Positions 1 through 33,145 of a stretch of DNA of 64,000 bases are shown piece by piece. The stretch spans positions 3,652,001 to 3,716,000 of the forward strand of contig NZ_CP047569.1 of assembly GCF_009903625.1 (NCBI RefSeq), written 5' to 3'. Below the pieces are notes generated by a model, which ran no database searches, was not told the origin of the DNA, and saw only the letters and a program-made list of their open reading frames with translations. Made by a program: the position numbers and the translations under genes. Position 1 is the first letter of the stretch. Each line of letters begins with the position of its first letter. Source of the DNA: Microbulbifer sp. ALW1. GTDB lineage: Bacteria > Pseudomonadota > Gammaproteobacteria > Pseudomonadales > Cellvibrionaceae.

Positions 1-800
1 CCTTGGCGCAATTGGCGATACTGACTCTCCAGTGCATCGCCGTGGGCTTGTGCCTGCCAGTCACGCAGCACCTGCGACCGGACACTGGCAAAATCCGCGC
101 TGGCCTGCGCGGTGTATTCCTCAACGAATACGAGATGCATGCCGTATTCTGAATGCACGGGCCCCACCCACTGTCCCCGAGGCTGGTCAAGCACCGCTTC
201 AGCGAATCCAGTACCCAGTTGTTTATTCACTTCTTCCAATGAGGCCTGAGTGAACTGTCGCGGCAACAAGTGACTGTCACCAGCGGTCGCCCATTTTTCT
301 CCATCGGCCAGCGCGGCAAGGGCCATCTCCGCATCCTGCTCAGGTTCAGCCCGTCGATCAACATTAAAATAAATCTGACGGAAGCTCAGCCGCGCCGGAA
401 GCTGGTAGCGATCCCCATTGTCCCGATAGAACTGCTGCAGTACTTCTGTTTCTGGCTCCACCGCGTTCACCAGATCCCGCGCGAGGAATTCCATTTTCAG
501 CCGCAGGCGCCGACGAATTACCGTATCGTCGGCTTCCAGGCCGAGTTTCAGGGCCTCGCGGTAAAGCACTTCCTCGCGCACGAGGTTGTCCACCAGCTTC
601 TGTATCTCCTCATCGCTCGGTGGGCGCTGCCAGCTTCGCTCAAACACTGCCGCAAGGTGCTCGATCCGGCTTGGCGTAATCACGATCTCTTCCGCGTCTG
701 CGTCACCGCCAAACAGGCCATCAATGGCGAACAGCAAGCCGCCAATCAAAGCGAAGTGCAGCAGGGGGTCGCGCAGCAATGGGACTTTTTTCAAATTCAT
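1..800 (-). CDS. Membrane-anchored PpiC-type (parvulin) peptidyl-prolyl isomerase, 3' end cut off
   Basis: About 266 residues are visible, beginning MNLKKVPLLRDP; the gene runs off the left edge of the window. A single hydrophobic segment near residues 13-25 suggests an inner-membrane anchor with the rest in the periplasm. A helical SurA-like N-terminal part (residues 30-110) is followed by a parvulin core; the stretch GPVHSEYGMHLVFVEE near residues 218-233 fits the PpiC consensus well. Such proteins isomerise X-Pro bonds and help exported proteins fold. The gene starts 39 bases after the DUF3604 stop on the same strand, so the two are probably co-transcribed and the isomerase may serve the exported hydrolases. 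The family assignment is firm; the client is inference. Confidence 0.85.
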   Translation of the reverse strand, partial: MNLKKVPLLRDPLLHFALIGGLLFAIDGLFGGDADAEEIVITPSRIEHLAAVFERSWQRPPSDEEIQKLVDNLVREEVLYREALKLGLEADDTVIRRRLRLKMEFLARDLVNAVEPETEVLQQFYRDNGDRYQLPARLSFRQIYFNVDRRAEPEQDAEMALAALADGEKWATAGDSHLLPRQFTQASLEEVNKQLGTGFAEAVLDQPRGQWVGPVHSEYGMHLVFVEEYTAQASADFASVRSQVLRDWQAQAHGDALESQYRQLRQ

Positions 801-839
801 ATCAACCACTCGATAACCGTCAACAACCCATTCGATAAA

Positions 840-2756
840 TTACCGCGCTTGCGGCGTGTACCAGATGGGCGAACTCCAGGCGCGCTCCTGAATCGATACC
901 GGAAGGTCTTCGCGGGGTTTACGCCCCAGTGCCTTGGCATCATAGGTGGACCAGCGCGGCGTTGGGATTTCCAGCACGCGCACGTAGTAGAAGGCGTGCT
1001 GCTGAGGCTGAAAATTATCGTCTCGCCATACCACCGACAGCTGAGCGTCTCCGATCTCGTTGGTGTAGGTAGCTGTAGACGGGTCGACAGTATTACCCAC
1101 CGGTGCCACCTTGCCGTCTGAATCGGCAACGCGGCCATCGGACAGGGCCACATCAAAAATCGCTTCGCGCTGTTCGCCATCTTCGACCCAGCCTTTCACC
1201 ACCTGAATACGATCCAGGTTTGCACCGGCACTGTCTTTCATGGCGCTGATCAGGAATACCGGCTTTTTACCGCCGCCTGCACTGGGCAAATCGCCACCCA
1301 TGGGCACGCCCGCGTCGTAAGCCTGTTGCAACCAGTCTGCTTTGCTGAGGGTGTCATCGCTAAAATCCCAGCCGCCGAAGAAACGCAGTTTCATGCGGGT
1401 GCCGGAGGTTGCATAGGTTTCCTTGCGCATCAACGCCGCGTAGATTGCCTCGCGAGTATTTTCAGGTGCCCACACGGCCGCGAGACCACCGGAGCTGAAC
1501 TCGCGTACACGGCGATTGTTGATGTCGTCACCGGGAAGCGGGCCGTCGAGGCGTTTCTCGGGTGTTGCTTCAAAAGCGAATTTGCCGGTGTGGTTGTCTT
1601 CCTCCACCGAGGCCGCTGCATTGTGGGTATCGGAATCGCCGATCAAACCGAATTTGTAGGGGTTGCCACGCCCGTCTGCGGCCATCGACAATCCATCGAG
1701 ATAAGCTTGCCGTGCGTAGCCGCCTTTCTTGTGCTCCGGCACCGCCGCGGTACTTGCGGACAGCAGGTAGTCCCACAGTTCAAAGCCGGCAAACTCGTCG
1801 TTCGGCGACAGCAGCGGATGGGTTTCCGAGGAACCCTTGATCTGGCTCACCTCGTACAGCGGCTCATTGGCGAGGCGCGCCTCAATGTATTCTGCCGACA
1901 GCGGCTCACCGTCCGCGGTTACGGTGGGGAACATCAGGCCGTCACTGGCGTTGCCGTTGTGGCTGATTGCCAGCAACGTGGCGCCGTTGGCGCGGGCGCG
2001 GTCCATGTATTTCCAAAGGTCCTGCGGGTCTTCGGATTCATTGGTACTGAATGGCAGCTCCGGTACCCCTTTGGAAGATTCGAATACCACTACCCGATGC
2101 AGGTTGCGCATGTCCGGTGTGGAGGTCCATTCAAACGCGGGAAAGGTAGTGAATTTTCCCGGCTCATAGTATTCATCTGCAGTATCCACCACTTCCCGCC
2201 AGATCGGCTTCATGATGGAGGGATCAGCCAGTGCCGGATCGGCCTTGCCCGGGGACATGGTGTCCAACACCCGTGCGTAGGCATCGAACGCTACCTTCTT
2301 ATCCTTGGAAGTAATTTCACTGGCGATCGGCAGTTTGCTCGCGGGGTTATCCGGATCCTGCATTTTTTTGAATACGCCAAGGTATTCCGAGTGGTCGGAA
2401 ACCGCGTAAAAATCCAGCGGGCGCTTGATCTGCATCACCCCGGCAGCCGCCGCTGCGGGAATGGCTTCGCCCTTAGCCCAGCGGTAGGCGTCAGCCGGTG
2501 TGGTATTGGCGCCATTGGTCAGGGCATCGAAGGAATAACTGGTGTGAACGTGAAAATTTCCAAAGTAAACCTGTTTAGCGATAGCGGCCTCGTGTGCGTC
2601 ACCCGGGTTACTAACCGACAGCGCGGATTCTTCACCAGTTATCGCCTGTTCGGTTTCTCCTTTGCCCCCGGAAAGTTCGCTGTTGTTATTCGCCACCGGT
2701 TCACCACAGCCAGCCAGGCCAAGCACCAGTAGGCAGACACCAGAAATAAATCGCAT
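840..2756 (-). CDS. DUF3604 lipoprotein (PHP-like metal hydrolase), copy 1
   Basis: The product has 638 residues and opens with a lipoprotein signal (MRFISGVCLLVLGLAGC, lipobox Cys17), so it should be lipidated and exported. From residue 64 it has the DUF3604 signature: YFGNFHVHTSYSFDA (H69, H71), then AVSDHSEYLG (D121, H122), ISHNGN and GDSDTH. These resemble the metal-binding motifs of the PHP phosphoesterase superfamily. It ends in SSPIWYTPQAR, nearly identical to the tails of the two other DUF3604 proteins in this window. A minus-strand terminator at 2815-2846 separates it from the upstream cupin operon, so it probably has its own promoter and runs on into the parvulin gene. The substrate is unknown; phosphoester hydrolysis is inferred from the motifs only. 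Confidence 0.88.
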   Translation of the reverse strand: MRFISGVCLLVLGLAGCGEPVANNNSELSGGKGETEQAITGEESALSVSNPGDAHEAAIAKQVYFGNFHVHTSYSFDALTNGANTTPADAYRWAKGEAIPAAAAAGVMQIKRPLDFYAVSDHSEYLGVFKKMQDPDNPASKLPIASEITSKDKKVAFDAYARVLDTMSPGKADPALADPSIMKPIWREVVDTADEYYEPGKFTTFPAFEWTSTPDMRNLHRVVVFESSKGVPELPFSTNESEDPQDLWKYMDRARANGATLLAISHNGNASDGLMFPTVTADGEPLSAEYIEARLANEPLYEVSQIKGSSETHPLLSPNDEFAGFELWDYLLSASTAAVPEHKKGGYARQAYLDGLSMAADGRGNPYKFGLIGDSDTHNAAASVEEDNHTGKFAFEATPEKRLDGPLPGDDINNRRVREFSSGGLAAVWAPENTREAIYAALMRKETYATSGTRMKLRFFGGWDFSDDTLSKADWLQQAYDAGVPMGGDLPSAGGGKKPVFLISAMKDSAGANLDRIQVVKGWVEDGEQREAIFDVALSDGRVADSDGKVAPVGNTVDPSTATYTNEIGDAQLSVVWRDDNFQPQQHAFYYVRVLEIPTPRWSTYDAKALGRKPREDLPVSIQERAWSSPIWYTPQAR

Positions 2757-2814
2757 CTGTTTATCTCGTTATTTTTTTAGCGGGTTTGCCATTTGACTGC
2801 GCAAATGAAGCGTG

Positions 2815-2901: not shown

Positions 2902-3408
2902 TTACTCGTCGGAGTAGCCGGCACCCACCGTCGGCTTGATATAACGCGGCACTACACCCTGAGCTTTTGCAGCTTCGCGAATCATCATTTCAATCCAACC
3001 AGCGTCCATAACATTCATGAACTCGTCGTTTTCGTCAAAATTGATATTGGCACCGGTCACCATCATGAAGGTGTCAGTCACTTCCGTGTTGCTTTCCGGA
3101 ACGTGCAGCTGGTGAATGGAACCGCCCGGCTCGTACAGGTAGCTGCCTGCGGTTTGCGGCTGATCCGGATATTCCACGTAATGCCAGCTGCCAGTCATGG
3201 TATACAGGTGTACGGCACCAGTATGGAAGTGCTTGGGCAAGGTGACACCCGCCTCAAACAACACACGCAATACCCAGACGCCATTCTCGGCATCCAGGAA
3301 ACAGGGATAGACATGCACGCCCGGCAATACATTACGAATTAGAGGAAGCTTGCTAGTGTCCAGGGTAAGCAGGGAGTCCTGCGGATGAATAGGCAGTGGA
3401 AGTACCAT
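2902..3408 (-). CDS. Cupin of the 2,4'-dihydroxyacetophenone dioxygenase (DAD) type
   Basis: The protein has 168 residues, no signal peptide, and is presumably cytoplasmic. It is a single-domain cupin: KHFHTGAVHLYTMTG (H60, H62 and possibly H67 as metal ligands) forms the first cupin motif, and EPGGSIHQLHVPE (H99/H102) the second. Overall length and pattern match the DAD-like cupin family, whose characterised member uses non-haem Fe to cleave the C-C bond of an aromatic hydroxyketone. The gene is last in the unit TonB receptor, alcohol dehydrogenase, SDR, cupin. That order suggests a ketone produced by the dehydrogenases could be its substrate. Family membership is well supported; the exact reaction is not. 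Confidence 0.8.
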   Translation of the reverse strand: MVLPLPIHPQDSLLTLDTSKLPLIRNVLPGVHVYPCFLDAENGVWVLRVLFEAGVTLPKHFHTGAVHLYTMTGSWHYVEYPDQPQTAGSYLYEPGGSIHQLHVPESNTEVTDTFMMVTGANINFDENDEFMNVMDAGWIEMMIREAAKAQGVVPRYIKPTVGAGYSDE

Positions 3409-3444: not shown

Positions 3445-4425
3445 TTATGCTTGGGAGTAAGCCTGACGAATTTCCTGCATGGCTTCGTCCAGGGTGACAG
3501 TTGGCTGATACCCCAGGAGCTTTTGCGCTTTGCTCGCGTCAAAAATGCTTTCCACACCGGTCAGGCGGTAGGCCAGGCGCGTTACCGGAGGAGCCTTCTT
3601 TAACCCGAATAGATTGCCAAAAAATTCCAGAACCGGGGCCAGCACCCGCGCAACGCCATTGGGAATACTTTTTGGTTGCGGCAATGACAGTGTTTGCGAC
3701 AGCGCGTCGAGATATTGCTTCCAGGTCACGCCCTGGCCGTCGGAAATCACAAAAATTTCCCCGCTCTCGATGCCGTCTTTACTGCCGGCAAGGGTCATTG
3801 CGTTGACCAGGTTGCGTACATGCACCAGACCCGCGTCCCACTCGCCACTGCCCATCAGTGCCGGTTTTTTCTCGGACAGGAATTCATGGAAACGATTGAC
3901 CCACACACTGCCAACGCCATACACATTGGCCGGGCGGATAATCACCGCATTCAGACCGAGCTCGCGTACCGCTTGCAGCGTCACATCTTCCTGCTGTTGT
4001 TTGGCAAATTCGTAGCTGGAGGACGGTACACCGCGAGGTGTGGATTCGTCCAACCTGCCACTGCCCATGGCACTGGCAAATGCGGCGATACTGGTAGTGA
4101 CCACAAAGCGGGCATCCCACTTGAGTGCCAGTAAAATCGCCTGCTCGGTACCGCGCACGGTGATGTCTACGTGCTCCTGACGCGAGCCCCAATCGCTCAC
4201 TACCGCCGCCAGGTGAAAGATGGTGTCCACCGCACCAATTTCTTCGCTGACCGCATCGAGCTTTCGTACATCCCCGGTGACGGTGCGCACGCGATCGCCC
4301 CAGGATTGTGGTACAGGCTCGCCGGGCAACATCAGTGCGATCACATTGCAGCCTTGCTCGAGTAACTGCGCCACCAGGTGGCGGCCAATAAAGCCGCCGG
4401 CACCGGTTACAAATACATTTTTCAT
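3445..4425 (-). CDS. NAD(P)-dependent epimerase/dehydratase (3-beta-HSD-like extended SDR)
   Basis: The protein has 326 residues. The Rossmann motif TGAGGFIG is at residues 7-14 and the catalytic pair SYEFAK gives Y138 and K142, with a Thr/Ser stretch (VVTTSI) before it, so it is an intact extended short-chain dehydrogenase. The family includes sugar epimerases, dihydroflavonol reductases and 3-beta-hydroxysteroid dehydrogenases. Phrases such as HLAAVVSDWG and RGTEQAILLA fit the last group better than sugar epimerases. The gene starts 15 bases after the alcohol dehydrogenase stop and precedes the cupin, so it is probably in the same transcript. It likely oxidises a secondary alcohol or reduces a ketone of the imported compound; the substrate is unknown. 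Confidence 0.85.
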   Translation of the reverse strand: MKNVFVTGAGGFIGRHLVAQLLEQGCNVIALMLPGEPVPQSWGDRVRTVTGDVRKLDAVSEEIGAVDTIFHLAAVVSDWGSRQEHVDITVRGTEQAILLALKWDARFVVTTSIAAFASAMGSGRLDESTPRGVPSSSYEFAKQQQEDVTLQAVRELGLNAVIIRPANVYGVGSVWVNRFHEFLSEKKPALMGSGEWDAGLVHVRNLVNAMTLAGSKDGIESGEIFVISDGQGVTWKQYLDALSQTLSLPQPKSIPNGVARVLAPVLEFFGNLFGLKKAPPVTRLAYRLTGVESIFDASKAQKLLGYQPTVTLDEAMQEIRQAYSQA

Positions 4426-4440
4426 CGGAATTACCTCGAG

Positions 4441-5502
4441 TTACTCTGCATACACAAGTTCGCCCGCACGCCAAGGTTCAACAATGACCTTGATGTGGGA
4501 GTTGGGTTGCATCAGAGTCTTGAAAGCACCGGGCACACCATCGATACCCACGGTGCCGGTCCACAGTGCCTTCCAATTGACCTGGCCCTTGGCGATACGG
4601 TTGAGACACTCGGCAAACTCATCCGGTGTGTAGTAGTAGGTAAAGCGGATATCCATTTCCTTCACCAGTGCAAAGGCGAAGTTCACCGGTGTTTCCGCGG
4701 TGTGGACACCGGTCACTACGAGGCGGGCCTTAGGCGGTGCACGGCGAATAAACCCATCCAGCAGCGTGTGGATTCCCACACATTCAAAAATCACTACCTG
4801 GTTGTCACCGGCCAGTGCAGCGGCTTTCGCAACTTCGTCCTCACTGGTCGGATCGATCACCTCAGTGGCACCGAATTCCAGCGCCATTTCGCGACTGGAG
4901 GCCTGCGGGTCGGAAGCAACGATGTGTCGCACACCGCGCAGACGCAGTGCGGCGATGACCGCAAGCCCGATGGGGCCGCAGCCGGCAACAAGCGCCACCT
5001 CGTTTTCGCCAATGTCCGAGCGATTGACCGAGTGCAGGCCGACCGCGAGTGGCTCGGTGATTGCCGCCGCCTGCGGGGAAACCCCTTCCGGCAGTGGCAG
5101 CATCAGCGCTTCGTCGAGCAGGAAATATTCGGAATATGCACCGTTCACACCGGGGGTTACTCCAATACCCGCGCCGTTCTGGGACATCAGAATGGGCACG
5201 CTGGTGACCTTGGAGCCCACCGCCAGGGAACCTTGGGTTTCCGGCCCATAGGCCACGACCTCTGCACTGAATTCATGCCCGAGCATGATGTCCGGATTAA
5301 CTTCGAGTTCCGCCGGCATCAAGCCCATTTTTTTGTAGAGGTCGAATACTTCGTCGCTGTGACGAGTCAGGTGCAGGTCGGAGCCGCAGATTCCACAGGC
5401 GAGGGATTTCACCAGCACCTGCCCCGGTCCCGGTTGTGGAATGTCGACGGTTTCCAGCTGAATGGCGCCGTTGCGCAGCACCACGGATTCCATGGTTGGC
5501 AT
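4441..5502 (-). CDS. Zinc-type medium-chain alcohol dehydrogenase
   Basis: The protein has 353 residues. The catalytic zinc site is recognisable: CGICGSDLH (C36, C39) and GHEFSAEV (H76, E77). The NAD-binding Rossmann motif is GCGPIGLAVIA near residues 175-185. The usual structural-zinc lobe with four cysteines is absent; no cysteine occurs between residue 40 and about 170. It therefore belongs to the branch with a single zinc. It is the second gene after the TonB receptor, separated from it by a strong hairpin at 5549-5574, and is followed closely by the SDR and the cupin. The likely role is oxidation of an alcohol on the imported substrate. The family is certain; the substrate is unknown. 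Confidence 0.88.
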   Translation of the reverse strand: MPTMESVVLRNGAIQLETVDIPQPGPGQVLVKSLACGICGSDLHLTRHSDEVFDLYKKMGLMPAELEVNPDIMLGHEFSAEVVAYGPETQGSLAVGSKVTSVPILMSQNGAGIGVTPGVNGAYSEYFLLDEALMLPLPEGVSPQAAAITEPLAVGLHSVNRSDIGENEVALVAGCGPIGLAVIAALRLRGVRHIVASDPQASSREMALEFGATEVIDPTSEDEVAKAAALAGDNQVVIFECVGIHTLLDGFIRRAPPKARLVVTGVHTAETPVNFAFALVKEMDIRFTYYYTPDEFAECLNRIAKGQVNWKALWTGTVGIDGVPGAFKTLMQPNSHIKVIVEPWRAGELVYAE

Positions 5503-5584: not shown

Positions 5585-8164
5585 TTAATCACCCAGGGTG
5601 TAGCTGAACTTGACGTTCCAGGAGCGACCGGCCAGTGGCATGTAGTTATGCGCTCCGGCGAACAGCGGCACGTCGTTGATGTAATTGAAGTAATCGCGGT
5701 CGGTGAGGTTTTTCCCGGTCAGGGCGACCTGCCAGCTACCATCCACCGGCATAAAGATCAGACCGGCATTCACAAACGCCTTGCCCTGCTCCAGGCTGAT
5801 CGGATCCAGGTCGTCCGAGCGATAGGTATCGCTGTAGTAGTTGACCGCAAAATTCGAATTCAGCTCGTAGTTACCCAGCGGCAGGTAGTGACTGGCCGAG
5901 AGGGAGGCTGTGGTGTCCGGGGCATTCGCCGCCGGGCGACCGGACAGGTCATTGGTACCCGCAGCAGCACACAGCGCGTTGTTGTAACCCAGCGCCGCGC
6001 CCAGTTGGCCGGCGATATCACCCGCGGCACCTGCCGCCTGGTACAGCGCCTCGCGCTCCGACAGGAACTGCGCACTGGTACACGCCTGGTTGGGGAATTT
6101 GTCGTAGGAGAAATCCAGCAGGCCCAGCGCACCGGACAGAGTCAGGTTATCAGTCACCATCCAGCGGCCATCCACCTCGATTCCCTGGGAAGTGGCTTCC
6201 GCCGCATTCTGCACCTCGAAGGTGGTGTTACCGCTGAAGATTGCCGCCTGCAGGTCCTCGAAGCGGGTCTGGAATGCGGCAACATTCAGCTCCGCCGCAC
6301 CACCGAGCAGGGTCGACTTAAGACCGACTTCAAAGGAGGTAGCCTTCTCTTCTTCAAAGCTCACGTCTTCAGAGAAGGCGCCGTTGCCGCGGGTCGGGCT
6401 ACGCATGTAGAAGGAGTTGAAACCGCCCGCCTTGAAGCCAGTGGAGACCGTGGTGTACGCCATAACACTGTCATTCAGGTCGTACTGCAGGTTCACAGAC
6501 CAGGTGGGGCTGTTTTCCTTGCGCGTCATACCCGGGTCATTCGAGTTGAAGCTGTGGGTGGTGAATTCACCCACCGCACTGGACACCGCGGTTACCCAGG
6601 CCTGTTCGGTTGGGGTGGTATTGCGTTCGGCGAAGTCCACCGCATAAGTGGCCTTGTCTGCAGACTTCTCTTCACTGGTGTAACGCAGGCCGAGGGTCGT
6701 GCGGAAACTGTCGGTGATATGCCAGGTGCCCTGGGCAAAAGCACCCAGAGTATCGGTCTGCTGTTGCAGTTGGGCATAACGGCCCACGCCATCTGGTATG
6801 CCGTCAAATGCCGCCGCGGTGCCACAGGCATTTACCAGTCCGGCCGGACCGCCAAGCCCGATCACACCGGCACCGGTGGCAACCGCATCACCGCCGACAT
6901 AGAGTGAACCCAGGTCGCCGCCCATGGCGCCCACGCCAGCGGCACAGCCGCCCAGTAGCACCTGCTGCAGCACCGGGATATTGAACAGGGACAGACCGTC
7001 GACAGTCATGTCCTGCTGCTGCCAGTAGAGGCCCGTCATGTATTCGAAGTTGTCACCGGCGCTGCCACTGAAACGCACTTCCAGGCTGCTCTGGGAAAAG
7101 TCCTCGGTATCGTCAAAACGCAGGCCATCCAGCGGCGAATAGTCCGCATCCAGGTAGCGCTCGTAATCGTAGGCCGAGTGACCGGCAACGATATTGAGGG
7201 TGCCGGTATCCAGCTCGGTTTCACTCATTACCGTGAATTCGTTGTGACTACCCGACATTTTCTGGGTGGCGCCAAAATTCAGTACCGGGTTAGTGTTACC
7301 CATGCTGGTGACATCGGTACCCTCGATGGCACCCAGTGCCGCCAGCGGTCCAGCAACTTTGGTAGCGTGCGGGAAAGCGCCCATATCGAAGTCCGCACTT
7401 TCAGCAATTGCGGTAATAACGGTGCTGTCGGAAACATCCCACTCCAGGGTAGCACGGCCCATCAGCTCGTCACTGCGCGGATCGTTGGTATCGTAAAACT
7501 CGTTGTGCACCCAGCCTTTATCCATCTCCCGGGACAGCAACACCAGTCGACCGCGGACACCGTCGGCCAGCTCACCAGACACCATGCCTTCCAGTTCGCT
7601 CTGTTCGAACTCGGGGGTATAACTCGCGCTCAGTTTCGCGGTGAAGTCTTCGGTGGGGCGCGCGCTGGTGATATTCAGCGCACCGGCAACGGTGTTTTTT
7701 CCAAACAGAATACTCTGCGGACCGCGCAGTACTTCCACACGCTCCACATCCACAAACGCGAAACGGGACTGCGCCGCACGGCCGCGGTAAATGCCGTTTA
7801 CAAACGTACCCACGGACTGCTCAAAGCCGGCCTGCTCACCGGACTGCATACCGCGGATATTGATCTTGTCGGAAATGGAGCTCTTGGTAACCGACATGTT
7901 GGGGATGTATGCGGAAAAATCTTCGAAGCGTTCGATGCCCGCTTCCTGAATCGTCTCGCCGGACATGGCGGAAACCGATAGCGGCACGTCCTGCAGGGAC
8001 TGCTCGCGTTTCTGTGCGGTTACCGTCACGTTTTCCAGAACGCGACCATTGTTATCCTGGCGGTCACTTTCCGCAGTGGTTTGTGCCAGTGCGGGCATGT
8101 TGATCAGGGTGAAAATCAGACTGCTGAGAATTGTACGCTTGGTTTTGAGTTGTGACTCGATCAT
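5585..8164 (-). CDS. TonB-dependent outer-membrane receptor
   Basis: The protein has 859 residues. A signal peptide ends near LPALAQ-like residues (INMPALAQ, around residue 28), and a TonB-box-like VTVTAQKRE follows at about residues 46-54. The plug domain (about 55-165) contains NIRGM and VLRGPQSILFGKNTVAGALNI, and a 22-strand barrel ends in a terminal aromatic-containing strand (WNVKFSYTLGD). The plug resembles receptors common in sphingomonads and marine gammaproteobacteria that take up small hydrophobic or aromatic compounds more than SusC-type glycan receptors; I see no SusD partner. It is first in the minus-strand unit with ADH, SDR and cupin, and diverges from the AraC regulator gene. 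Import of the pathway substrate or a related ligand is inferred. Confidence 0.92.
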   Translation of the reverse strand: MIESQLKTKRTILSSLIFTLINMPALAQTTAESDRQDNNGRVLENVTVTAQKREQSLQDVPLSVSAMSGETIQEAGIERFEDFSAYIPNMSVTKSSISDKINIRGMQSGEQAGFEQSVGTFVNGIYRGRAAQSRFAFVDVERVEVLRGPQSILFGKNTVAGALNITSARPTEDFTAKLSASYTPEFEQSELEGMVSGELADGVRGRLVLLSREMDKGWVHNEFYDTNDPRSDELMGRATLEWDVSDSTVITAIAESADFDMGAFPHATKVAGPLAALGAIEGTDVTSMGNTNPVLNFGATQKMSGSHNEFTVMSETELDTGTLNIVAGHSAYDYERYLDADYSPLDGLRFDDTEDFSQSSLEVRFSGSAGDNFEYMTGLYWQQQDMTVDGLSLFNIPVLQQVLLGGCAAGVGAMGGDLGSLYVGGDAVATGAGVIGLGGPAGLVNACGTAAAFDGIPDGVGRYAQLQQQTDTLGAFAQGTWHITDSFRTTLGLRYTSEEKSADKATYAVDFAERNTTPTEQAWVTAVSSAVGEFTTHSFNSNDPGMTRKENSPTWSVNLQYDLNDSVMAYTTVSTGFKAGGFNSFYMRSPTRGNGAFSEDVSFEEEKATSFEVGLKSTLLGGAAELNVAAFQTRFEDLQAAIFSGNTTFEVQNAAEATSQGIEVDGRWMVTDNLTLSGALGLLDFSYDKFPNQACTSAQFLSEREALYQAAGAAGDIAGQLGAALGYNNALCAAAGTNDLSGRPAANAPDTTASLSASHYLPLGNYELNSNFAVNYYSDTYRSDDLDPISLEQGKAFVNAGLIFMPVDGSWQVALTGKNLTDRDYFNYINDVPLFAGAHNYMPLAGRSWNVKFSYTLGD

Positions 8165-8436: not shown

Positions 8437-9438
8437 ATGACTGAATTCGTCAGAGCCGGGTCCCTCAATGGATATGATGAACTGGCAAGGAAGTTGGGCG
8501 CCAACCCGGTACAACTGCAGCGAGCCATCGGCTTGCCCACCAGCCAACTGCGCGACCCCGACAACCTGATCCCCTATGAGAAGCTCGGACAATTGCTGGA
8601 GCTAACCGCACGGGAAACCGGTACCGAAACCTTCGGCCTGCGCCTGGGCATGAGCCAGGGCTTGCGCGTGCTGGGGTTATTTGGCGCCTACATGTCCCGC
8701 CAGGACAGCGTGACCAGCGCACTCGCTGTAGGCAGCAAACACACCCACCTGCACGCCCAGGGGGCCATCCTCACCCTGAATCCCACTGAGCGGGCAGAGA
8801 CCGCGCTCAAGCTGGATATCCTGGTTGCCCAGCACGGTCGCTTTCCGCAATTGATGGCGCTCAGCATCGCGCTGGTTTACCAGCTGATACGGGATATGGC
8901 GGGCCACCAGTGGCATTCCAGCCGGGTTTTGTTCCGGCATCCGCCACCAGAGAAAGGGAAAGACTTTTACCAGCAAGCCTTTGCCTGTCCGGTAGAATTC
9001 AATGCCGAACACGATGGTTTTTTTATCGACCGCGAAACACTGGCCAAGAAGCCGCGCACACTAGAAGGACTGGTTAATGAAATTATTTTCAGCCAATTCG
9101 AACAGCTAAAAACGGACCCCAACAGCGACCTGACCCCGCTGGTAAAACACGCCATCCTCGGCTTGCTACCTACCGGAGACTGCAGCAAAACCAATGTTGC
9201 ACTCTGCTTGGGAATGCATCCGAAAAAACTGCAACGGGCGCTCGAATCCTCACAAACAAGTTTTCGATCACTCCTGGAAGAAACCCGCAAGGAAGTTGCC
9301 AAAACTGCAGTGTTCAAAAGCAGCATGCCACTCACCAGTATCGCGTTGAATCTCGGTTACGCGGATCTCGCCGTATTCAGCCGAAGCTTCCGCCGCTGGT
9401 TTGGCATACCGCCATCCATGGCCGAGGGCCGGCGATAG
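8437..9438 (+). CDS. AraC-family transcriptional regulator with arabinose-binding-like N-terminus
   Basis: The protein has 333 residues. The N-terminal part (about 20-200) matches the Arabinose_bd-type ligand domain of OruR/ArgR-like AraC proteins, including GLRLGMSQGLRVLGLFGAYM. The C-terminal part (about 235-333) is a double helix-turn-helix: GDCSKTNVALCLGMHPKKLQRAL and LTSIALNLGYADLAVFSRSFRRWFG. It diverges from the TonB receptor unit and is followed on the same strand by a sulfatase with its own AT-rich upstream region. It probably senses the imported compound or a breakdown product and activates the receptor/oxidation genes and perhaps the sulfatase. The fold is certain; the ligand and targets are inferred. 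Confidence 0.9.
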   Translation: MTEFVRAGSLNGYDELARKLGANPVQLQRAIGLPTSQLRDPDNLIPYEKLGQLLELTARETGTETFGLRLGMSQGLRVLGLFGAYMSRQDSVTSALAVGSKHTHLHAQGAILTLNPTERAETALKLDILVAQHGRFPQLMALSIALVYQLIRDMAGHQWHSSRVLFRHPPPEKGKDFYQQAFACPVEFNAEHDGFFIDRETLAKKPRTLEGLVNEIIFSQFEQLKTDPNSDLTPLVKHAILGLLPTGDCSKTNVALCLGMHPKKLQRALESSQTSFRSLLEETRKEVAKTAVFKSSMPLTSIALNLGYADLAVFSRSFRRWFGIPPSMAEGRR

Positions 9439-14658: not shown

Positions 14659-14680
14659 TGCCTAAAGAGGCAGCCTGTCC

Positions 14681-21383: not shown

Positions 21384-21472
21384 ACCAGAGCCCCATGAAT
21401 CACCGCCCTGAACTTCATCCCTACACCAAACCCACGCAACAGCGTCGCCATCGGAAAATCCCGGAGGATTTT

Positions 21473-24952: not shown

Positions 24953-27403
24953 CTACTTCATTTCCACCACGACCTTTTGAATCTCACCGGTAAACGCATT
25001 TGGCGGCTCATATTCATGGGTTACCGGCTGTCCGGTATCTTCGCCAATACCGAAGGTATCGATACCAAAACGTCCGGCAACGGTCTCGGGTACTTCTCCG
25101 GTGGCGACCGTCTCGCCGTTGACCTTGAGCGCCAGTTTCGCCGCGCCACCGGGCTTTTCGCCCTGGTAATCGAAGTCCACCTCAATAGTCGCGTCACCGG
25201 AAACGGCTTTGTCACCTTTCAAAGTGGTGTGCTTTTCAAAAAAGTTGTAATCAAATACCGGTACGCCGCTATCCAGATACAACACTAGCCCGGCGGCCAC
25301 GCCACCTACGGCCAGGATCACCCCTTCGGTCTTGGCACCCTCGGATTTCACATTCGCGGTCAGGGTCCAGGAAGCGTTCTTCATGGAAGGGCCGGCCACT
25401 TCGGGAATACGGACAGCGCCCGGGTAATAGGTGTAGATTTTTGAATCGGGAATGGCACCCGGCACCGGTGGCTTGGGCATACCCAGCCGGCCCGCACCGC
25501 GGTCGTCCATCGGATACACCTCGTTGTCCTGTGCAGCCTGATCAAACTTTTGCTTCAGTTCGGCGAGCTTGTCAGGATTCTCCGCGGCGAGGTTATTGGC
25601 CTCGGAGAAATCCTCGTTAAGGTTATAGAGTTCCCACTCGTCTTTCTCCCAATTGCCCGGGGCCAGATCCTGGCGCCAGGGCAGCGTATGCTGCGCGTTT
25701 GCCTTCCAGCCATCGGCATACATGGAGCGGTTGCTGAATACCTCGAAGTATTGCTCGCCACGCCCGCTAAATTGCGGGTCACTGAAACTGGCGAGGAACG
25801 ACTTGCCCACCAGCGGCTTCTGCTCGATACCGTTGACCGTATCCGGCATGGGTACATTGGCGGCTTCCAGAATGGTGGGTACCACGTCTACAAGATGCAG
25901 AAAGGCGACCCGCGGTTGGTCATCGTGTTTGATCTTGGCGGGCCAGCGGATCACCATCGGGTTGCGGGTACCACCCAGATGTGAGGCAACCTGCTTAACC
26001 CACTGGAACGGCGTATTGCCCGCCCAGGCCCAGCCGACCGGGTAATGGGGTTCCGATTCCGGCCCGCCCAGCTTGTCGAGATTTTCCAGGATTTCGTCCA
26101 GGGTCGTCGGCAAGCCGTTCAGGTTTTTAATTTCATTCATGGTGCCGTCGGGCCCACCCTCTGCGGATGCGCCATTGTCACCAACGATGTAGATCACCAG
26201 CGTGTTGTCGGCATCGGGTAATTCATCCACCGCATCAATAAGACGCCCTACTTCGTGGTCGGTAAAGGCAAAGTAACCGGCAAAGTTTTCAAACAGCGCG
26301 TTGTAGGCTTTCTTCTGGTCATTACTCAGGCTATCCCACGCGGGCACCCACTCCGGCCGCTCCGTCAGTTTGGTATCGGCGGGAATAATGCCCATTTTCT
26401 TTTGCTGCTCGAACACCTCCTCACGGTATTTATCCCAGCCCATGTCGAACTTGCCCTTGAACTTTTCACGCCACTCTGCGGTGACATGGTGGGGTGCGTG
26501 CATGGCCCCCGGGGCGAAGTACATAAAGAAGGGTTTATCCGGGGCAACGGACTTGGCAAACTTCATGCGGGCGATGGCGCGGTCGGTCATGTCGGTCATG
26601 AAGTGGTAGCCCTCTTCCGGGGACTTATCCGGCTCCACCGGCACGGTGTTCTCAAACAGCACCGGATAATACTGGTGCGTTTCACCAGCGTTGAATCCAT
26701 AGAAATAATCAAAGCCGAGCCCCGTCGGCCAGCGATCGAAGGGGCCGGATACCGTCGCTTCCCAGTCCGGGGTATTGTGGTTCTTGCCATACCACCAGGT
26801 GCTGTAGCCGTTATCTTTCAAGATTTCAGCAATAGTGGCGGTGCTTTTCGGAATATAGGCCGAATAGCTGGGAAAGCCCGTTGCCCACTCCATCAGGAAA
26901 CCACTGCCCGACTGGTGATGGTTGCGCCCGGTCAACAGCGCCGCGCGCGACGGGCCGCAGATCGCCGTGGTATGGAAGCGGTTATAGCGCAGCCCCTGTG
27001 CGGCCAGCTCATCCAGATTGGGTGTGGGGATCAGCCCACCGAAGGTGGACGTTTGGCCAAAGCCGACGTCATCCAGAAGAATGACGATCACATTGGGCGC
27101 GCCCTTAGGTGCGGTGGGAACCTGTTGCCAGCTGGATTCGGATTCCTTGTAGGTCTTGCCGATCTTGCCTTCAAACGGTGACAGGTCATTGGGCAGATTT
27201 TTCCGGTCCGGCCAGGAAGCGCTGTCGGACGCCACCGAGCTGCTCGCTGATTTATCGTCAACAACGGCAATCGGTTTTGCATCCTCGCTGATCGCGCTTT
27301 TCGGCGCCTGCGTATCTGACGCCGGTGGCGCGGCATCTCGAGAGCAACCGGCTACTGCGAGGGACAACGCCAGTACCGACAAAGCGGCAGAAAAAAATTT
27401 CAT
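24953..27403 (-). CDS. Large lipoprotein arylsulfatase 4 (AslA/AtsD-like, CGPSR)
   Basis: The protein has 816 residues from the ATG at 27403. This start is preferred to 27478 because AAGGAAGG lies upstream and the lipoprotein signal [10 protein letters not shown]...AVAGC (Cys20) begins here. A low-complexity linker reaches about residue 75. The sulfatase domain has [10 protein letters not shown] (DD 111-112) and the formylglycine motif [13 protein letters not shown] with C149. It matches the large arylsulfatase type known from mycobacteria and many soil and marine bacteria, ending in an extra beta-rich domain (about 640-816) not found in the other sulfatases here. It lies between DUF3604 copy 2 (81-base gap) and sulfatase 3 (41-base gap), in one transcript. 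Confidence 0.9.
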
Positions 27404-27484
27404 CACAGTTATCCTTCCTTGGATTTTTTCTGGCTCATTCAGGGAATCTGAACAATACCAGGCTATACAACCATCCAAACAAGC

Positions 27485-29473
27485 TTACGGCGTATACCAG
27501 ATCGGCGATGACCAGGCGCGCTGGCGAATGGTCTTGGGTAATTCCTCGGGATGCTCAACGCCGGCCTTTTTCGCGTCGTACATACTCCAACGGCACACCG
27601 GATTTTCCAGCACGCGGGCGTAGTAAAAGGCATGTTCTGCCGGGTCAAAGTCAGGATCCGTCCAGGTGGCCGCCAGTTGCGCGTCACCTTTGTCGGAGCT
27701 GATGGAGCAGTCTTCCAGATTAACGGTGGCGCCGTTGTCGGGGCACTGATGCGTTTTGGGATCCGGCTTTGCGCCGTCAGAGCAAGCGACGTCATAGGTC
27801 ATTTCTTCCAGCTTGTCGTCCGCTGTGCGCCAGCCCTTGATGATTTGCAAACGAGCCAATGGAGCACTGTTGGGGTCCCGTTGCGCCCACAACATCAGCG
27901 TCGGCGCCTTGCCTTCCGGAGCTTCACCCAGATCGCCGCCCTGGGGCACACCACTCTGGTAACCAATTTCTACCCAATTGTTTTTCGTAGCCATGTCAGC
28001 GGGAAAACCGTAACCGGCGAACATCCGGATCTTGGTACGGGTACCACTGGTACCGAAGGTTTCCTTACGGTATAGCGCGTCCCAGATGCCCTCGCGTGTA
28101 TTGCTTTCGGCCCAGACGCCCGCAATCCCGCCCGGGTTGTATAGCTTGGTAGGGTCGTCCTCGGCCTTCAGGCCCATCGCGAGTGCTGTAGGGTTCGGCT
28201 TGAGTCCCAGGCGTACTTCTGGAGCGCCGTCGTTATTGGCGTAATGCCCCTCGAAATCACTCTCGGTGGTATCACTGGGGGTACCGTTGTGGTTGTCGGT
28301 GGAGGCGATGATGCCCTGCTTGAACGGATTTACTCCCATCTTCGCCTGGTGACGCAGACCAAATATCAGGCCATTGCGCACTAATCCGTAGTCGTTGGTG
28401 CAGCCGGCAGTGTTTTCGCCCTCACATTTTGGGAACACCATTTCAAAGTTACAGGCCTCGTCCGTGGTCATGATCCCGGTCTGGCACTCGGAGTTGCCCT
28501 TCACCTGCATAACCTCTACCAGACGATCCATGCGTTCACGACGCTCGACAATGTCCTGAGTCCACTCGGAGCCGTCACTATTTTTTCCCCAGTAGAGGCG
28601 CCCCCAGTAAAAGTTCGGGTTGTGGGGAATGGTCAGCACCTGGCATTCTCCAGTGCAATTGGTTTCCAGCCATTTATGCAGCTCTTCTCCGGTACCCTCA
28701 AACGCAGAAAACACCGTTTTCGGTACCTTGGCACTGCGGAAAATGACATTGCGGTGCATCATGCCGCCACCGCCCTCCGGCGCGTTGGCGGAAAATTCGA
28801 ACGCGACCAGGGATGTGAACTTGCCCGGTTCGTAGTTTTCAGCCGCCGCCTGCTGAATGCGGCCCCAGGGGCCGGTCACCGCGTCCACGCAGGTTTTGCC
28901 ATCTTCGCCGCACAGATCCGCAAGACGCTTGGCCGGCGACTTTGAGATACCTGCGAATATTTCCTCGAAATATTTGATCTCGTTCGCACGCATCCCCTTA
29001 CAGGTTTCCGTGTCGTAACCTTTCATTTCCGGGTTGGTGCAGATTTCGTATTCACCCAACGCCTCCGCATGATCGGTAATGGCGACAAAGTCCAGGGGCG
29101 AAATGATCTTCTTCTCCACACCGGTGGGCAGCTTTATCGTCTCCCCCTTGGCAAAGCGATAAGCCATAAAAGGGTCATTCAGGGCATTGCCGAAGATATA
29201 GGCATCCAATGAATAAGCCGTATGGATGTGAAGCTCGCCGAAGTAGGCGTCACGCAGTGGATTAGTGGGCACCTCGCTGCTGCCCCCTGCCTTGTTTACC
29301 GGAGTCGTCGTGGCGTCTGTCGGTATCGGCGTATCATTCGTTTCAGCGGTTTCGACGCTTTCAACCTCTGCCGTAGCATCCAGCCCGATTGATTCTTCCA
29401 CTTTTTTGGGATCAGATTTATTGCTACAAGCGCCTAGTAAAAGCACCGCCAGAACGCAGATGCTGTATCGCAC
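27485..29473 (-). CDS. DUF3604 lipoprotein (PHP-like metal hydrolase), copy 2
   Basis: The protein has 662 residues. The lipobox LLGAC gives Cys16, with an acidic Thr/Glu linker to about residue 72. PHP-like motifs: FGELHIHTAYSLDA (H82, H84), AITDHAEALGEYE (D134, H135), TIPHNPN and ASTDNHNG. It has a longer insert with several cysteines (CTNPEMKGYDTETC, CGEDGKTC, CTGEC) that could form disulfides outside the cytoplasm. The C-terminus is RAWSSPIWYTP. It sits between DUF3604 copy 3 and sulfatase 4. Metal-dependent hydrolysis, probably of a phosphoester, is inferred from the superfamily; the substrate is unknown. Confidence 0.88.
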   Translation of the reverse strand: MRYSICVLAVLLLGACSNKSDPKKVEESIGLDATAEVESVETAETNDTPIPTDATTTPVNKAGGSSEVPTNPLRDAYFGELHIHTAYSLDAYIFGNALNDPFMAYRFAKGETIKLPTGVEKKIISPLDFVAITDHAEALGEYEICTNPEMKGYDTETCKGMRANEIKYFEEIFAGISKSPAKRLADLCGEDGKTCVDAVTGPWGRIQQAAAENYEPGKFTSLVAFEFSANAPEGGGGMMHRNVIFRSAKVPKTVFSAFEGTGEELHKWLETNCTGECQVLTIPHNPNFYWGRLYWGKNSDGSEWTQDIVERRERMDRLVEVMQVKGNSECQTGIMTTDEACNFEMVFPKCEGENTAGCTNDYGLVRNGLIFGLRHQAKMGVNPFKQGIIASTDNHNGTPSDTTESDFEGHYANNDGAPEVRLGLKPNPTALAMGLKAEDDPTKLYNPGGIAGVWAESNTREGIWDALYRKETFGTSGTRTKIRMFAGYGFPADMATKNNWVEIGYQSGVPQGGDLGEAPEGKAPTLMLWAQRDPNSAPLARLQIIKGWRTADDKLEEMTYDVACSDGAKPDPKTHQCPDNGATVNLEDCSISSDKGDAQLAATWTDPDFDPAEHAFYYARVLENPVCRWSMYDAKKAGVEHPEELPKTIRQRAWSSPIWYTP

Positions 29474-29515: not shown

Positions 29516-31504
29516 TCAAGGGGTATACCAAATAGGGCTGGAGAAGGCGCGCTCTTGCTGAACCATAGGCACCTTTTTATCCATCTCAATCTTGTTTCTC
29601 ACCTTGTCGTACAGGGTCCAGCGGGGCGTGGGAATCTGTAGTACCCGCACGTAATACACAGCTTTATGCGCGGGATTGAACTCTTTGTCTTCGAAGTAAC
29701 CGATTAACTGCGCATCGCCGATATCATCGGTGTACTTAGCGGTTTTCTTGTCTACCGTAGTACCCACATGCTGGATATGACCCTGGCTGTCCAGCTTGCG
29801 ATTGCCCGACCACTTCACGTTGTAGACTTTTTCGTGGGTGTTTCCACTGCCATCCACCCAGCCTTTGATAATTTGAATACGATCCAGGTTTGCGCCTTGC
29901 GGGTCTTTCATGGCGGCAACGAGGAATTTGATTCGCTTGGTACCCTTATCGCCTTTCAGTTTGCCCCCCATTGGGACGCCTTTTTCATAACCGCGTTTGA
30001 CCATATCCGCTTCGGCATCTTCCGGGCTGAAATCGAAACCACCGAAAAAGCGCAGGGTCATACGTGGGCCAGTGGTGGCAAACGTCTCCTTGCGCATCAT
30101 GGCGTCCCAGATGGCTTCACGGGTATTTTCAGCCGCCCAGACCCCCATACTGCCGGAAGCCGCCATTTCCCAGCCCATGTAGACGTCGGTCGGCCCACTT
30201 AACAGGGGGAAGTCCCAACGGGTCTTGTTGCTGGGCTCAAGGGTTTTGAACTTGCCAAAGAAATTGTCGTCGTCCGGTGTGGACAAACCCGTGTGGGTAT
30301 CTGTGCCGGCATTGGCACCGTACTGGAAGGGGTTGGTTCCGAGTTTATCTTCAAGCCGCATACCGGCCTTGAGGGCCGGGCGCCAGTATTCATATTTGAA
30401 CGAGCCCGGTGGTTTGGGTTTTAAAATCAGATTGCCGCGGTCCCACAGATCCCAGTCGGAAAACTCGTCTTCCGGTGACAGGCTGGGATGGGATTCACTC
30501 TGCCCCTTGATCTGGGTGACTTCATACAGTGGCTCGTAGCGCGCGCGCATTTCCGCCCACTCTTTGGTCATGGGCGAGCCATCGAAACGCTTCTCCTCAA
30601 ACATACGGCCATTGGACATATTGCCGTTGTGGGGAATGGCCAGCACCCGGCCACCGGTCTTGTCTTCGTAGGCTTTCATCCAGGCCCAGAGCTTTTCCGG
30701 GTCCTGGGTTTCGAAGGTGGTCAGAGGGAGTAAACTGCGGGTTTTACTGGCATCGTCACGGAAGATCACGTTGCGGTGCAAGTTGTCGCCACCATCCGCA
30801 TTCACCGTCCATTCGTAGGCGATAAATGTGGTGAACTCACCGGGCTTATTGTACTTCTCGGCGGCATCAACGGTTTTCTCCCAGGCCGACTTCATCCACT
30901 TGGGGTCCATCACTTCCTTCGGTAACTTGCCTTCCGATTGCAGCACAATCAGCTCACTCTTGGCGTCCGCCGCCTTTTTTTCATCGCCGGAATTGAGAGC
31001 CTCGTTCCAGCGCTTCAGCGTCGGGTCCGCCATCATTTCCGGATTACCGGCTATGAGCTCATTGATTACGCCCATACCATCGGAATGGTCGGTAATCATG
31101 AACCAGTCATAAGGCCGACTGAGCCTGGTCGGGAGGCCAGTATTGGATTTCACTTCTTCGCCCAGGGCAAACCGATAGGCATCTTCCGGTGAGAGAATGG
31201 CACCATCCATTCCCGCATCGGCAGACCAGCCGGTGTGTACATGAGTATCGCCAAAATACGCCTCGGTCGGGTAAGACGTATTGGTCGGCCGCGAAGTCCG
31301 GGACGACGGCGCCGCTTCGGGCATAGGCGCCTTGCCTGTCGTGTCCGACACGGGGCCATCCGCGGTACCCAGTTCCTCGTCCACCAGGGTCCCACCTTTC
31401 CCGCCCGAAGCGTCATTCGCGGCCTGGTCTTCGCGATCTCCGCCACACGCCGACAGTGCAATGACCGCCACCAATACGGATAAAGACAAACCGTGCTTGT
31501 TCAT
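29516..31504 (-). CDS. DUF3604 lipoprotein (PHP-like metal hydrolase), copy 3
   Basis: The protein has 662 residues. The lipobox IALSAC gives Cys20. PHP-like motifs: FGDTHVHTGWSADA (H88, H90), MITDHSDGMG (D139, H140), AIPHNGN and AGTDTHTG. The C-terminus is RAFSSPIWYTP. It is closer to copy 1 than to copy 2: both have QIKG-S-E(T/S)HP followed by LSP-DEF, and DRIQ(V/I)-KGWV. It is second in the five-gene operon, 105 bases after sulfatase 5 and 42 before copy 2. The three copies are divergent enough to act on different substrates or positions. Confidence 0.88.
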   Translation of the reverse strand: MNKHGLSLSVLVAVIALSACGGDREDQAANDASGGKGGTLVDEELGTADGPVSDTTGKAPMPEAAPSSRTSRPTNTSYPTEAYFGDTHVHTGWSADAGMDGAILSPEDAYRFALGEEVKSNTGLPTRLSRPYDWFMITDHSDGMGVINELIAGNPEMMADPTLKRWNEALNSGDEKKAADAKSELIVLQSEGKLPKEVMDPKWMKSAWEKTVDAAEKYNKPGEFTTFIAYEWTVNADGGDNLHRNVIFRDDASKTRSLLPLTTFETQDPEKLWAWMKAYEDKTGGRVLAIPHNGNMSNGRMFEEKRFDGSPMTKEWAEMRARYEPLYEVTQIKGQSESHPSLSPEDEFSDWDLWDRGNLILKPKPPGSFKYEYWRPALKAGMRLEDKLGTNPFQYGANAGTDTHTGLSTPDDDNFFGKFKTLEPSNKTRWDFPLLSGPTDVYMGWEMAASGSMGVWAAENTREAIWDAMMRKETFATTGPRMTLRFFGGFDFSPEDAEADMVKRGYEKGVPMGGKLKGDKGTKRIKFLVAAMKDPQGANLDRIQIIKGWVDGSGNTHEKVYNVKWSGNRKLDSQGHIQHVGTTVDKKTAKYTDDIGDAQLIGYFEDKEFNPAHKAVYYVRVLQIPTPRWTLYDKVRNKIEMDKKVPMVQQERAFSSPIWYTP

Positions 31505-31609
31505 TTTTTAGCTTCCCTAGCAAAAGAATCTTTAAATAACTTTGCCTCGAACTGATGCCAGTAACGGGGCAGAAAATTACGCTGTAAATGGGTGTCCAGC
31601 GATCACACG

Positions 31610-33145
31610 CTAACGCTGCTGATGCGCCAGTGAATTGATCAGCTTACTGACCTCGTCGACCTGCACCGACATACTCTCCTGCACCGGCGGAAACTCCTGG
31701 AAACTTTTGACAAATTTCTGAATCTCCCCAGCGGCTGGCCCCGATGTCCAGCTGCGGTTTTCCGCCCACTCGTCGTAGCCGCGCGCATCGATGAAACGTT
31801 CAAACGGGTCGAGTTTCAGGTTGATAATATAGGGCGTGGTTAAGGGTATCTGGCTGGCACGGAACCACTCTTCCTGATCGATAAACAGAAACTTCCAGTC
31901 GCCATGCCGCATACCATGAAAGGTAGTTTCGGTGAAGTAGAAGAATTCCTTACGCTTCGTTTTTCCTTGTTTCAACAGTATGTCGGTCTGGTCGTAGCCA
32001 TCGAGATGCACCTTGAAGTTTTTGTCGCCAACCTTGGCGCCTGACAGCAACTTTTCTTTGATGTTGCTCTCGCCAACAATGGACAGGATGGTGGGAACCC
32101 AGTCTTCCATCGCCATAAATTCACCGGCGGAAACACCGGCGGGGATGTGCCCTTTCCAGCTCACGAGCATGGGAACACGAAAGCCGCCTTCCCAGCCACC
32201 GACACCTTTTTCTCCGTGGAACGGCTGATTGCCACCATCCGGCCAGGAATTCGACGCGGCGCCGTTGTCAGTGGAGAACATCACCAGGGTGTTGTCTGCC
32301 ACGCCAAGCTCGTCCAGCAAATCCAGCAACTCGCCGACGATATCATCCAGTTCCATCATGCCGTCGGCGTAGATGCCGTAGCCGCTTTTTCCCTGATACT
32401 TCTTGTTCAGATTCGTCCGGTAGTGCATGCGCGTTGTGTTGTGCCTCACAAAAAATGGCTTTCCGGCTTTGACCGACTCGGTAATAAAACGCTTGGATTG
32501 TTCGAGCACTTCCCAGTCGAGATTGCGCTGGCGCTCCTGACCCCAGGCGCCCATGTCCTCGATTTGCTGCTTGCCATCGGACTGTGCCTTGGCGTGCACA
32601 ACCCCACGCATTTTCAGCCCGTACTGCTTTTGTATTGCCGGGTCTTTCGGGTAATCGTATTGCTCGGGATATTCACCCGCATTCAGGTGATAGAGAATGC
32701 CAAAGAATTCATCAAACCCGTGCGCCGTTGGCAGGTGCTCATCCCGGTCACCCAGGTGGTTTTTTCCGAATTGGCCAGTGACATAACCGTGTGGCTTGAG
32801 CAGCTCCGCCATCGTCGGTGTCTCAGCTTTGATGCCCTGTTCGGCGCCAGGCAGACCAACGGTACTGAGACCGATCCGCATGGGATACCGACCGGTAATA
32901 AACGACGCCCGCCCTGCGGTGCAGGACGCATGGGCATAGTGATCCATGAAAATCATGCCGTCTTTGGCAATGCGATCGATATTAGGGGTCGAGCCTCCCA
33001 TCATTCCGCGGTGGTAGGCGCTGACATTCCACATACCAATATCATCACCCCAGATAATGAGTATATTGGGCTTTTCCGCGGCACTGACGACCAGTGCCGC
33101 CACGCACAGATAGAGGGCGGCTACACACTGGCACAATGTTTTCAT
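31610..33145 (-). CDS. Exported S1-family sulfatase 5 (CTAGR motif), first gene of the five-gene operon
   Basis: The protein has 511 residues. A signal peptide (about 1-22) ends before AEKPNILIIWGDDIG (DD 34-35). The formylglycine motif is SCTAGRASFITGR with C75, with Ala at the Pro position. KNHLGD and STDNGAASNSWPDGGNQPFHGEKGVGGWEGG follow. It is related to sulfatases 1 and 2, sharing the WNVSA..RGMMG region, PKDP and AGKPFFVRHNTTRMH. It is the promoter-proximal gene of the run sulfatase 5, DUF3604-3, DUF3604-2, sulfatase 4, sulfatase 3. The 237-base gap to the divergent CDF gene should hold its promoter. Confidence 0.9.
   Translation of the reverse strand: MKTLCQCVAALYLCVAALVVSAAEKPNILIIWGDDIGMWNVSAYHRGMMGGSTPNIDRIAKDGMIFMDHYAHASCTAGRASFITGRYPMRIGLSTVGLPGAEQGIKAETPTMAELLKPHGYVTGQFGKNHLGDRDEHLPTAHGFDEFFGILYHLNAGEYPEQYDYPKDPAIQKQYGLKMRGVVHAKAQSDGKQQIEDMGAWGQERQRNLDWEVLEQSKRFITESVKAGKPFFVRHNTTRMHYRTNLNKKYQGKSGYGIYADGMMELDDIVGELLDLLDELGVADNTLVMFSTDNGAASNSWPDGGNQPFHGEKGVGGWEGGFRVPMLVSWKGHIPAGVSAGEFMAMEDWVPTILSIVGESNIKEKLLSGAKVGDKNFKVHLDGYDQTDILLKQGKTKRKEFFYFTETTFHGMRHGDWKFLFIDQEEWFRASQIPLTTPYIINLKLDPFERFIDARGYDEWAENRSWTSGPAAGEIQKFVKSFQEFPPVQESMSVQVDEVSKLINSLAHQQR

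Follow-up and report, generated by a model that had tools for sequence, protein, structure and literature searches.

A composite and variable sulfatase locus of Microbulbifer with a recurring group of sulfatase, HAD hydrolase, MoxR/Bat and eight-heme cytochrome genes

We analysed a stretch of 64,000 nucleotides from Microbulbifer sp. ALW1 (contig NZ_CP047569.1, positions 3,652,001 to 3,716,000; hereafter the window), which holds in its left half an island with five S1-type sulfatases (S1a to S1e) and three DUF3604 lipoproteins (DUF3604a to DUF3604c). The main finding, and the novel part of the locus, is that genes for the sulfatase S1b, an exported HAD hydrolase, an eight-heme cytochrome c and a MoxR/Bat operon recur together (module 1). 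Searches of the open-licence PMC literature listed no description of this group, which does not prove that there is none, and the excerpt of PMC12175321 describes no such cluster. The same site carries a DUF3604 gene with genes for a peptidyl-prolyl isomerase and HupE/UreJ (module 2) and an operon for a TonB-dependent receptor, an alcohol dehydrogenase (ADH), a short-chain dehydrogenase/reductase (SDR) and a cupin (module 3). Rather than one system, the region looks to be an assembly of three or more modules at a single chromosomal site.

Recurrence of S1b with HAD, MoxR/Bat and cytochrome genes

The alignment with S1b recovered at least 568 related stretches, from which we kept the best 80, 79 of them outside Microbulbifer. 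Homologues of the neighbouring island genes recur near S1b in these 79 loci (HAD 28, MoxR 25, VWA 24, cytochrome 24, DUF58 23, BatD 17), so that the core genes stand beside S1b in several phyla. Within 10 kb of S1b, at least one of HAD, MoxR and cytochrome was present in 46 of the 79 loci, at least two in 25 and all three in six; for the 50 loci of at least 20 kb the respective numbers were 35, 21 and six. As a control we used 40 DUF3604 neighbourhoods (up to 20 kb, thus not random sulfatases), where HAD and MoxR were absent and the cytochrome was seen once, leaving a single neighbourhood with any partner. The HAD gene shares the strand of S1b in all 28 cases, MoxR in 24 of 25 and the cytochrome in 17 of 24. 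Partners were found, among others, in records from Pseudomonas, Vibrio, Shewanella, Rhodobacteraceae, Rhizobium, Bosea, Echinicola and Rubritalea.

The sulfatase motif CTAGR was found in 75 of the 79 open reading frames (ORFs) matching S1b in the 80 loci, and the eight CXXCH motifs of the cytochrome are kept without exception in all 24 aligned homologues, the window copy included. Distance matrices correlated with that of S1b at 0.40 for HAD (n = 29), 0.55 for MoxR (n = 26) and 0.72 for the cytochrome (n = 24), each with p 0.0005 and uncorrected for species relatedness, which fits common inheritance but does not set it apart from the relatedness of the species. The window MoxR is closest to copies from Rhodobacterales (69–74 %), and the closest relatives of S1b are other records (up to 79 % identity outside the genus); as the two differ in this, module 1 may be a mosaic.

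Homologues of S1b were also recovered from 205 plasmid records, with up to 81.6 % identity on Sinorhizobium plasmids. On pMl3 of S. medicae, an operon of MoxR-like AAA, DUF58, DUF4381, VWA, VWA and BatD genes lies on the strand of S1b and starts about 7 kb from it. Around S1b in the 79 loci outside the genus we found no homologue of the cupin, SDR, ADH or AraC genes, one of the second AraC gene and two of the TonB receptor.

We had also considered that the cytochrome and Bat proteins substitute for the formylglycine-forming enzyme (FGE). Near S1b, an FGE-like cluster was seen in seven of the 80 loci (five by motif) and an anSME-like one in four (one by motif), as assigned by clustering and by eye and not by Pfam. 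As some S1b genes have FGE-like or anSME-like ORFs in their vicinity, the idea was dropped. The ALW1 genome itself has four PF03781 matches, by family match alone.

Conservation of the locus within Microbulbifer

DUF3604 genes were found in 38 of 47 genomes of the genus, and from these 38 we fetched 18 loci with DUF3604c, which is therefore present in all 18 by choice of the loci. Among them, HAD and the cytochrome occur in 16, S1b in 15, Bat in 10 and S1e in nine. The island TonB receptor, S1d and DUF3604b are present in only four (G002, G038, G020 and G015), which are the loci with the whole block; the receptor/ADH/SDR/cupin operon is likewise intact in four of the 18, as judged at these loci and not genome-wide. 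In another genus of the family (L206), a receptor 51 % identical to that of the island is found with AraC and a DUF3604 gene.

A CDF gene adjoins the locus in 15 of the 18 relatives, and PLD and/or FadL genes lie at the opposite end in 11; the four full-block stretches stop before that point. Gene content between the borders differs greatly from species to species, and AraC, cupin and SDR genes return there in several arrangements. Genomes without DUF3604 show smaller forms: the CDF gene was found in three of the eight searched (of nine such genomes), with the order FadL–cytochrome–HAD–S1b–CDF in one (L236), FadL–PLD–cytochrome–HAD–S1c–FMO–CDF in another and a near-empty PLD–AraC–CDF in a further one. 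The core of the locus is HAD, the eight-heme cytochrome with TPR and an S1 sulfatase. In Microbulbifer guangxiensis (L103), S1b is 86 % identical, which is the level seen within the genus, and has the same CDF, HAD and cytochrome neighbours. S1b of G042 (L075) is split in two pieces, and in both G042 and G044 separate DUF3604 frames each have a single stop.

Some species have a second, island-specific Bat operon. DUF4381 was matched in 56 of 58 relatives, and wherever the island bears Bat, ALW1 included, the island DUF4381 is the second strong copy in the genome. The Bat-less islands of G011, G013, G017, G024 and G035 are accompanied by a single strong copy, located outside the island.

DUF3604 genes and their partners

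The arrangement DUF3604–peptidyl-prolyl isomerase–HupE/UreJ is a separate operon type. Homologues of PpiC and/or HupE were present in 16 of the 40 DUF3604 neighbourhoods (34 of the 40 outside the genus), always sharing the strand of the nearest DUF3604 gene; the count with all genes on one strand is 15, since L227 has another DUF3604 gene on the opposite strand. By annotation, the three genes stand in a row on the rhizobial plasmids L239 (conjugative) and L240 (non-mobilizable), the two opened of 77 records matched. Within the class, DUF3604 matches were found in 23 of 229 genomes, ALW1 included, some of them weak. The operon offers a testable setting for DUF3604, a name that we found in one paper of the open-licence literature searched; in the excerpt of that paper a DUF3604 protein is merely listed, in what reads as a table row (PMC11925237).

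The DUF3604 proteins may be PHP-type metallohydrolases. We compared them with the PHP metal motif, which we take to be HxH, DH, E, H, H, DxH, and the His, Asp and Glu residues of a PHP-like pattern were invariant in six aligned DUF3604 proteins. An hhalign comparison with a PHP alignment placed motifs I and II in register at E 0.027, with a probability of only 1.8 % (four controls gave E 0.11–0.59). Pfam returned no PHP match, the pairwise alignment with PHP did not rise above shuffles, and Foldseek with a model of pLDDT 66.6 gave no match at E 0.001 or better and no PHP protein.

One system or several modules

The initial annotation regarded the island as one system that imports, strips and oxidises an esterified small molecule, and proposed conservation of the gene set as a block as the check. 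The block is indeed kept in four of the 18 loci, but this low number, together with the distributions that the parts have of their own outside the genus, means that independent inheritance of the parts was found in part. The single system was therefore not borne out, while import, ester stripping and oxidation agree with the gene content if the substrate is a hydrophobic small molecule.

We consider it an even chance that the region is a composite, variable Microbulbifer locus between CDF and PLD/FadL for the use of a hydrophobic or amphiphilic small molecule, which would lose sulfate, and probably also phosphate or other groups, outside the cytoplasm before the released alcohol is oxidised. 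Uptake across the outer membrane would be the task of FadL and the TonB receptor, and the exported sulfatases, HAD and DUF3604 proteins would take off the groups outside the cytoplasm. ADH, SDR and an FMO-like monooxygenase could then oxidise the product, which the acyl-CoA ligase would activate, and the cytochrome might accept electrons from a periplasmic step. The MoxR/Bat proteins would fold or metal-load an exported client, either S1b or the cytochrome.

Possible, if less probable, is that the site between CDF and PLD/FadL is a hotspot that merely gathers genes of exported hydrolases, with no common substrate and with the sulfatases serving mainly for sulfate gain. The very variable content between the borders and the separate distributions of modules 1 and 2 speak for such a hotspot. 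However, S1b adjoins DUF3604 in four records outside Microbulbifer (L113, L119, L202 and L218), and the AraC, cupin and SDR genes recur at the site.

Several observations weigh against the favoured reading of a composite locus. As many as 33 of the 79 S1b loci lack a nearby HAD, MoxR or cytochrome gene altogether; of the 79, 29 span less than 20 kb, and 15 of the 50 longer ones are without a partner. No partner is annotated in the 25 kb shown of the S1b plasmid L241, whose annotation is incomplete. In a search confined to DUF4381, this gene was missing from two of five S1b genomes, those with the methylotroph names Methyloceanibacter (L104) and Hyphomicrobium (L105). A Bat operon is absent from six of the 16 Microbulbifer loci that contain both HAD and cytochrome (G011, G013, G024, G035 and G042 with S1b, G017 without it), which argues against a strict need for Bat, although another Bat copy could serve. 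On NZ_CP021813, which has both genes, the best S1b and DUF3604 places are far apart. The substrate is a candidate only, and the FMO, ligase and FadL genes left of the window may serve another pathway.

Candidate substrates

Among candidate substrates of the composite locus, a hydrophobic sulfate ester fits best. Genes fitting uptake and oxidation are those for the TonB receptor, ADH, SDRs, two Cupin_7 proteins, FMO, acyl-CoA ligase and FadL/TodX, in and left of the window. Their content resembles the mycobacterial mymA-type operon, as AraC with Arabinose_bd, FMO, SDR, zinc ADH and acyl-CoA ligase are all represented, but the counterparts here are scattered over separate units and the likeness is one of gene content alone.

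The steroid-like substrate suggested by the initial annotation was weakened. Use of a steroid or sterol sulfate, in which a sulfatase frees a 3-beta-hydroxyl that is then oxidised by cholesterol oxidase or a 3-beta-HSD-like SDR, appears unlikely. It would agree with the 3Beta_HSD match of the island SDR, with a steryl-sulfatase among the PDB matches of S1b and with a GMC oxidoreductase gene near S1b inside the homologous locus of G002 (L047/L091) and G020 (L057/L092), whose product matches cholesterol oxidase (PDB 1b8s) over residues 71–566 of 570 at E 2.2e-70. However, close copies of the GMC gene were found in only two of the 37 Microbulbifer genomes searched, a set that includes ALW1, and the ALW1 genome gave no match to the cholesterol-oxidase-like GMC protein. 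The KshA match in ALW1 was marginal, with 22 bits (partial) or 23.4 bits with neighbouring pieces against a cut-off of 23.3; other enzymes of the 9,10-seco pathway were not searched. As the KshA match is marginal and cholesterol oxidase has no match, steroid ring degradation is not well supported and full steroid catabolism was not adopted for ALW1; given the cholesterol-oxidase-like gene at the locus in two relatives, a sterol-type alcohol may still be a substrate.

The initial annotation judged that the island is not a normal polysaccharide locus, and this held: Pfam found no glycoside hydrolase (GH), polysaccharide lyase (PL) or SusD family among the 21 island proteins, and the single TonB receptor is the sole SusC-like element. 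A polysaccharide locus is rejected on this gene content. It is most improbable that the locus serves a sulfated algal polysaccharide or oligosaccharide such as fucoidan without local glycosidases and with S1b as a carbohydrate sulfatase: PsFucS1 (S1_13; 7aj0) is the best PDB match of both S1b and S1c, for which reason a sugar sulfate may yet be a substrate, and GH43, GH3 and GH5 genes are present in the wider surroundings, but S1b resembles PsFucS1 only modestly (198.5 bits over 469 residues), no fucoidan-type genes were seen around S1b, and its close homologues, among them those on the Sinorhizobium plasmids, occur in plant-associated and soil bacteria.

A possible role of MoxR/Bat

Known MoxR–VWA maturation systems (mox/mxa, NorQD) are similar to the island in that a MoxR AAA+ ATPase and its VWA partners are encoded next to an enzyme and a cytochrome c, as in the mxa cluster with its role in Ca2+ loading; a search of the open-licence literature on Ca2+ loading found nothing. 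The island differs in that a sulfatase, accompanied by HAD, takes the place of the neighbouring enzyme and the cytochrome combines eight hemes with a TPR part. The operon has the gene order of the Bat (aerotolerance) operon (MoxR, DUF58, DUF4381, VWA, VWA/TPR, BatD), but the island copy adjoins a sulfatase, and ALW1 has another strong DUF4381 match elsewhere. To our knowledge, S1 sulfatases are usually thought to require only FGE.

Our tentative and rather doubtful proposal is that sulfatase, HAD, MoxR/Bat and eight-heme cytochrome form an undescribed, horizontally spread system, in which MoxR/Bat would be the dedicated maturase of an exported formylglycine sulfatase, for example by Ca2+ loading, and the cytochrome would link it to respiration. 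The choice of S1b as client is a guess, and the cytochrome is just as possible. In the excerpts of the respective papers, MoxR is important in methanol dehydrogenase activation (PMC3893208), NorQD acts in metal insertion into NO reductase (PMC13036017) and PsFucS1 is Ca2+-dependent (PMC8484680); the excerpt of PMC9976466 contains nothing on methanol dehydrogenase. If the proposal is true, MoxR/Bat systems gain a testable client, organosulfate use is tied to respiration, and the group is the equivalent, for a sulfatase, of the methanol dehydrogenase cluster.

Gene content of the island and its surroundings

All gene classes of the initial annotation were recovered at their coordinates by Pfam and sequence inspection (Table 1). 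The Pfam scan covered the 21 proteins within 840–33145, while none of the 10 island proteins scanned with NCBIfam exceeded the cut-off of a family. The Bat/MoxR–VWA operon spans 13657–20221 (+) with its six genes in the order given above, BatD standing just at the curated cut-off. The motif C-x-[PA]-x-R is found in each of the five sulfatases (as CTAGR in three, CTPGR in one and CGPSR in one), and signal peptides or lipoboxes were recognised, by eye alone, on sulfatases, DUF3604 proteins, HAD and cytochrome. The clustering is more than chance: this 33-kb island of a 4.68-Mb genome holds five of the 10 PF00884 matches (nine above cut-off) and three of the four DUF3604 genes.

Table 1. Genes of the island and its borders, in window coordinates
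Feature	Position	Strand	Evidence	Module
PpiC/Rotamase_2 peptidyl-prolyl isomerase	1..809	-	Pfam; C-terminal end left of window (L230:5919-6809), HupE_UreJ_2 next there	2
DUF3604a lipoprotein	840..2756	-	PF12228, E 1.6e-222	2
Cupin_7 protein	2902..3408	-	PF12973	3
Extended SDR	3445..4425	-	Pfam (Epimerase; 3Beta_HSD match too)	3
Zinc-type ADH	4441..5502	-	PF00107/PF08240	3
TonB-dependent receptor	5585..8164	-	PF00593/PF07715	3
AraC regulator with Arabinose_bd, divergent from receptor operon	8437..9438	+	PF12625/PF12833
Sulfatase S1a, CTAGR	9613..11124	+	PF00884; 51 % identity to S1b
Eight-heme cytochrome c + TPR lipoprotein	11197..13536	-	Pfam; 8 CXXCH	1
MoxR AAA+ ATPase	13657..14658	+	PF07726	1
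DUF58 protein	14681..15721	+	PF01882	1
DUF4381 protein	15722..16306	+	PF14316	1
VWA membrane protein	16303..17310	+	PF00092; DISGS, MIDAS-like by eye	1
VWA + TPR membrane protein	17307..18968	+	PF13519 + TPR	1
BatD-like protein	18965..20221	+	PF13584 at threshold (24.2 vs 24.1 bits); operon position
Exported HAD hydrolase	20376..21383	+	PF12710; like PDB 4ovy, E 2.4e-126	1
Sulfatase S1b, CTAGR (the widely conserved one)	21395..23041	+	PF00884, motif	1
Sulfatase S1c lipoprotein, CTPGR	23109..24911	-	PF00884, motif
Sulfatase S1d, CGPSR	24953..27478	-	PF00884; best PDB matches are arylsulfatases 7all and 4cxk/1hdh
DUF3604b lipoprotein	27485..29473	-	PF12228, E 2.1e-191
DUF3604c lipoprotein	29516..31504	-	PF12228, E 4e-228
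Sulfatase S1e, CTAGR	31610..33145	-	PF00884; 48 % identity to S1b
CDF cation transporter, right-hand border gene	33383..34501	+	PF01545

Base 1 is not a natural left end, as the operon extends past the window into further ALW1 DNA (L230, L233): the receptor–ADH–SDR–cupin–DUF3604a operon carries on leftward with the PpiC isomerase and HupE_UreJ_2. Farther left lie a second AraC, a Cupin_7 protein, an extended and a short-chain SDR, an acyl-CoA ligase, an S8 protease, an FMO-like monooxygenase, a PLD protein and FadL/TodX, with FadL about 17 kb from the window and FMO and ligase within that distance. The S8 protease gene (L233:9573-13346, +), which sits between the ligase and FMO genes, did not appear in the stretches that we fetched from relatives, several of these stopping short of that place. 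To the right, beyond the island, the nearest glycosidase seen is a GH43 with ricin-type lectin domains (45163–47133, -), and subunits I and II of a cytochrome bd oxidase are encoded at 56504–59231 (+) of the window.

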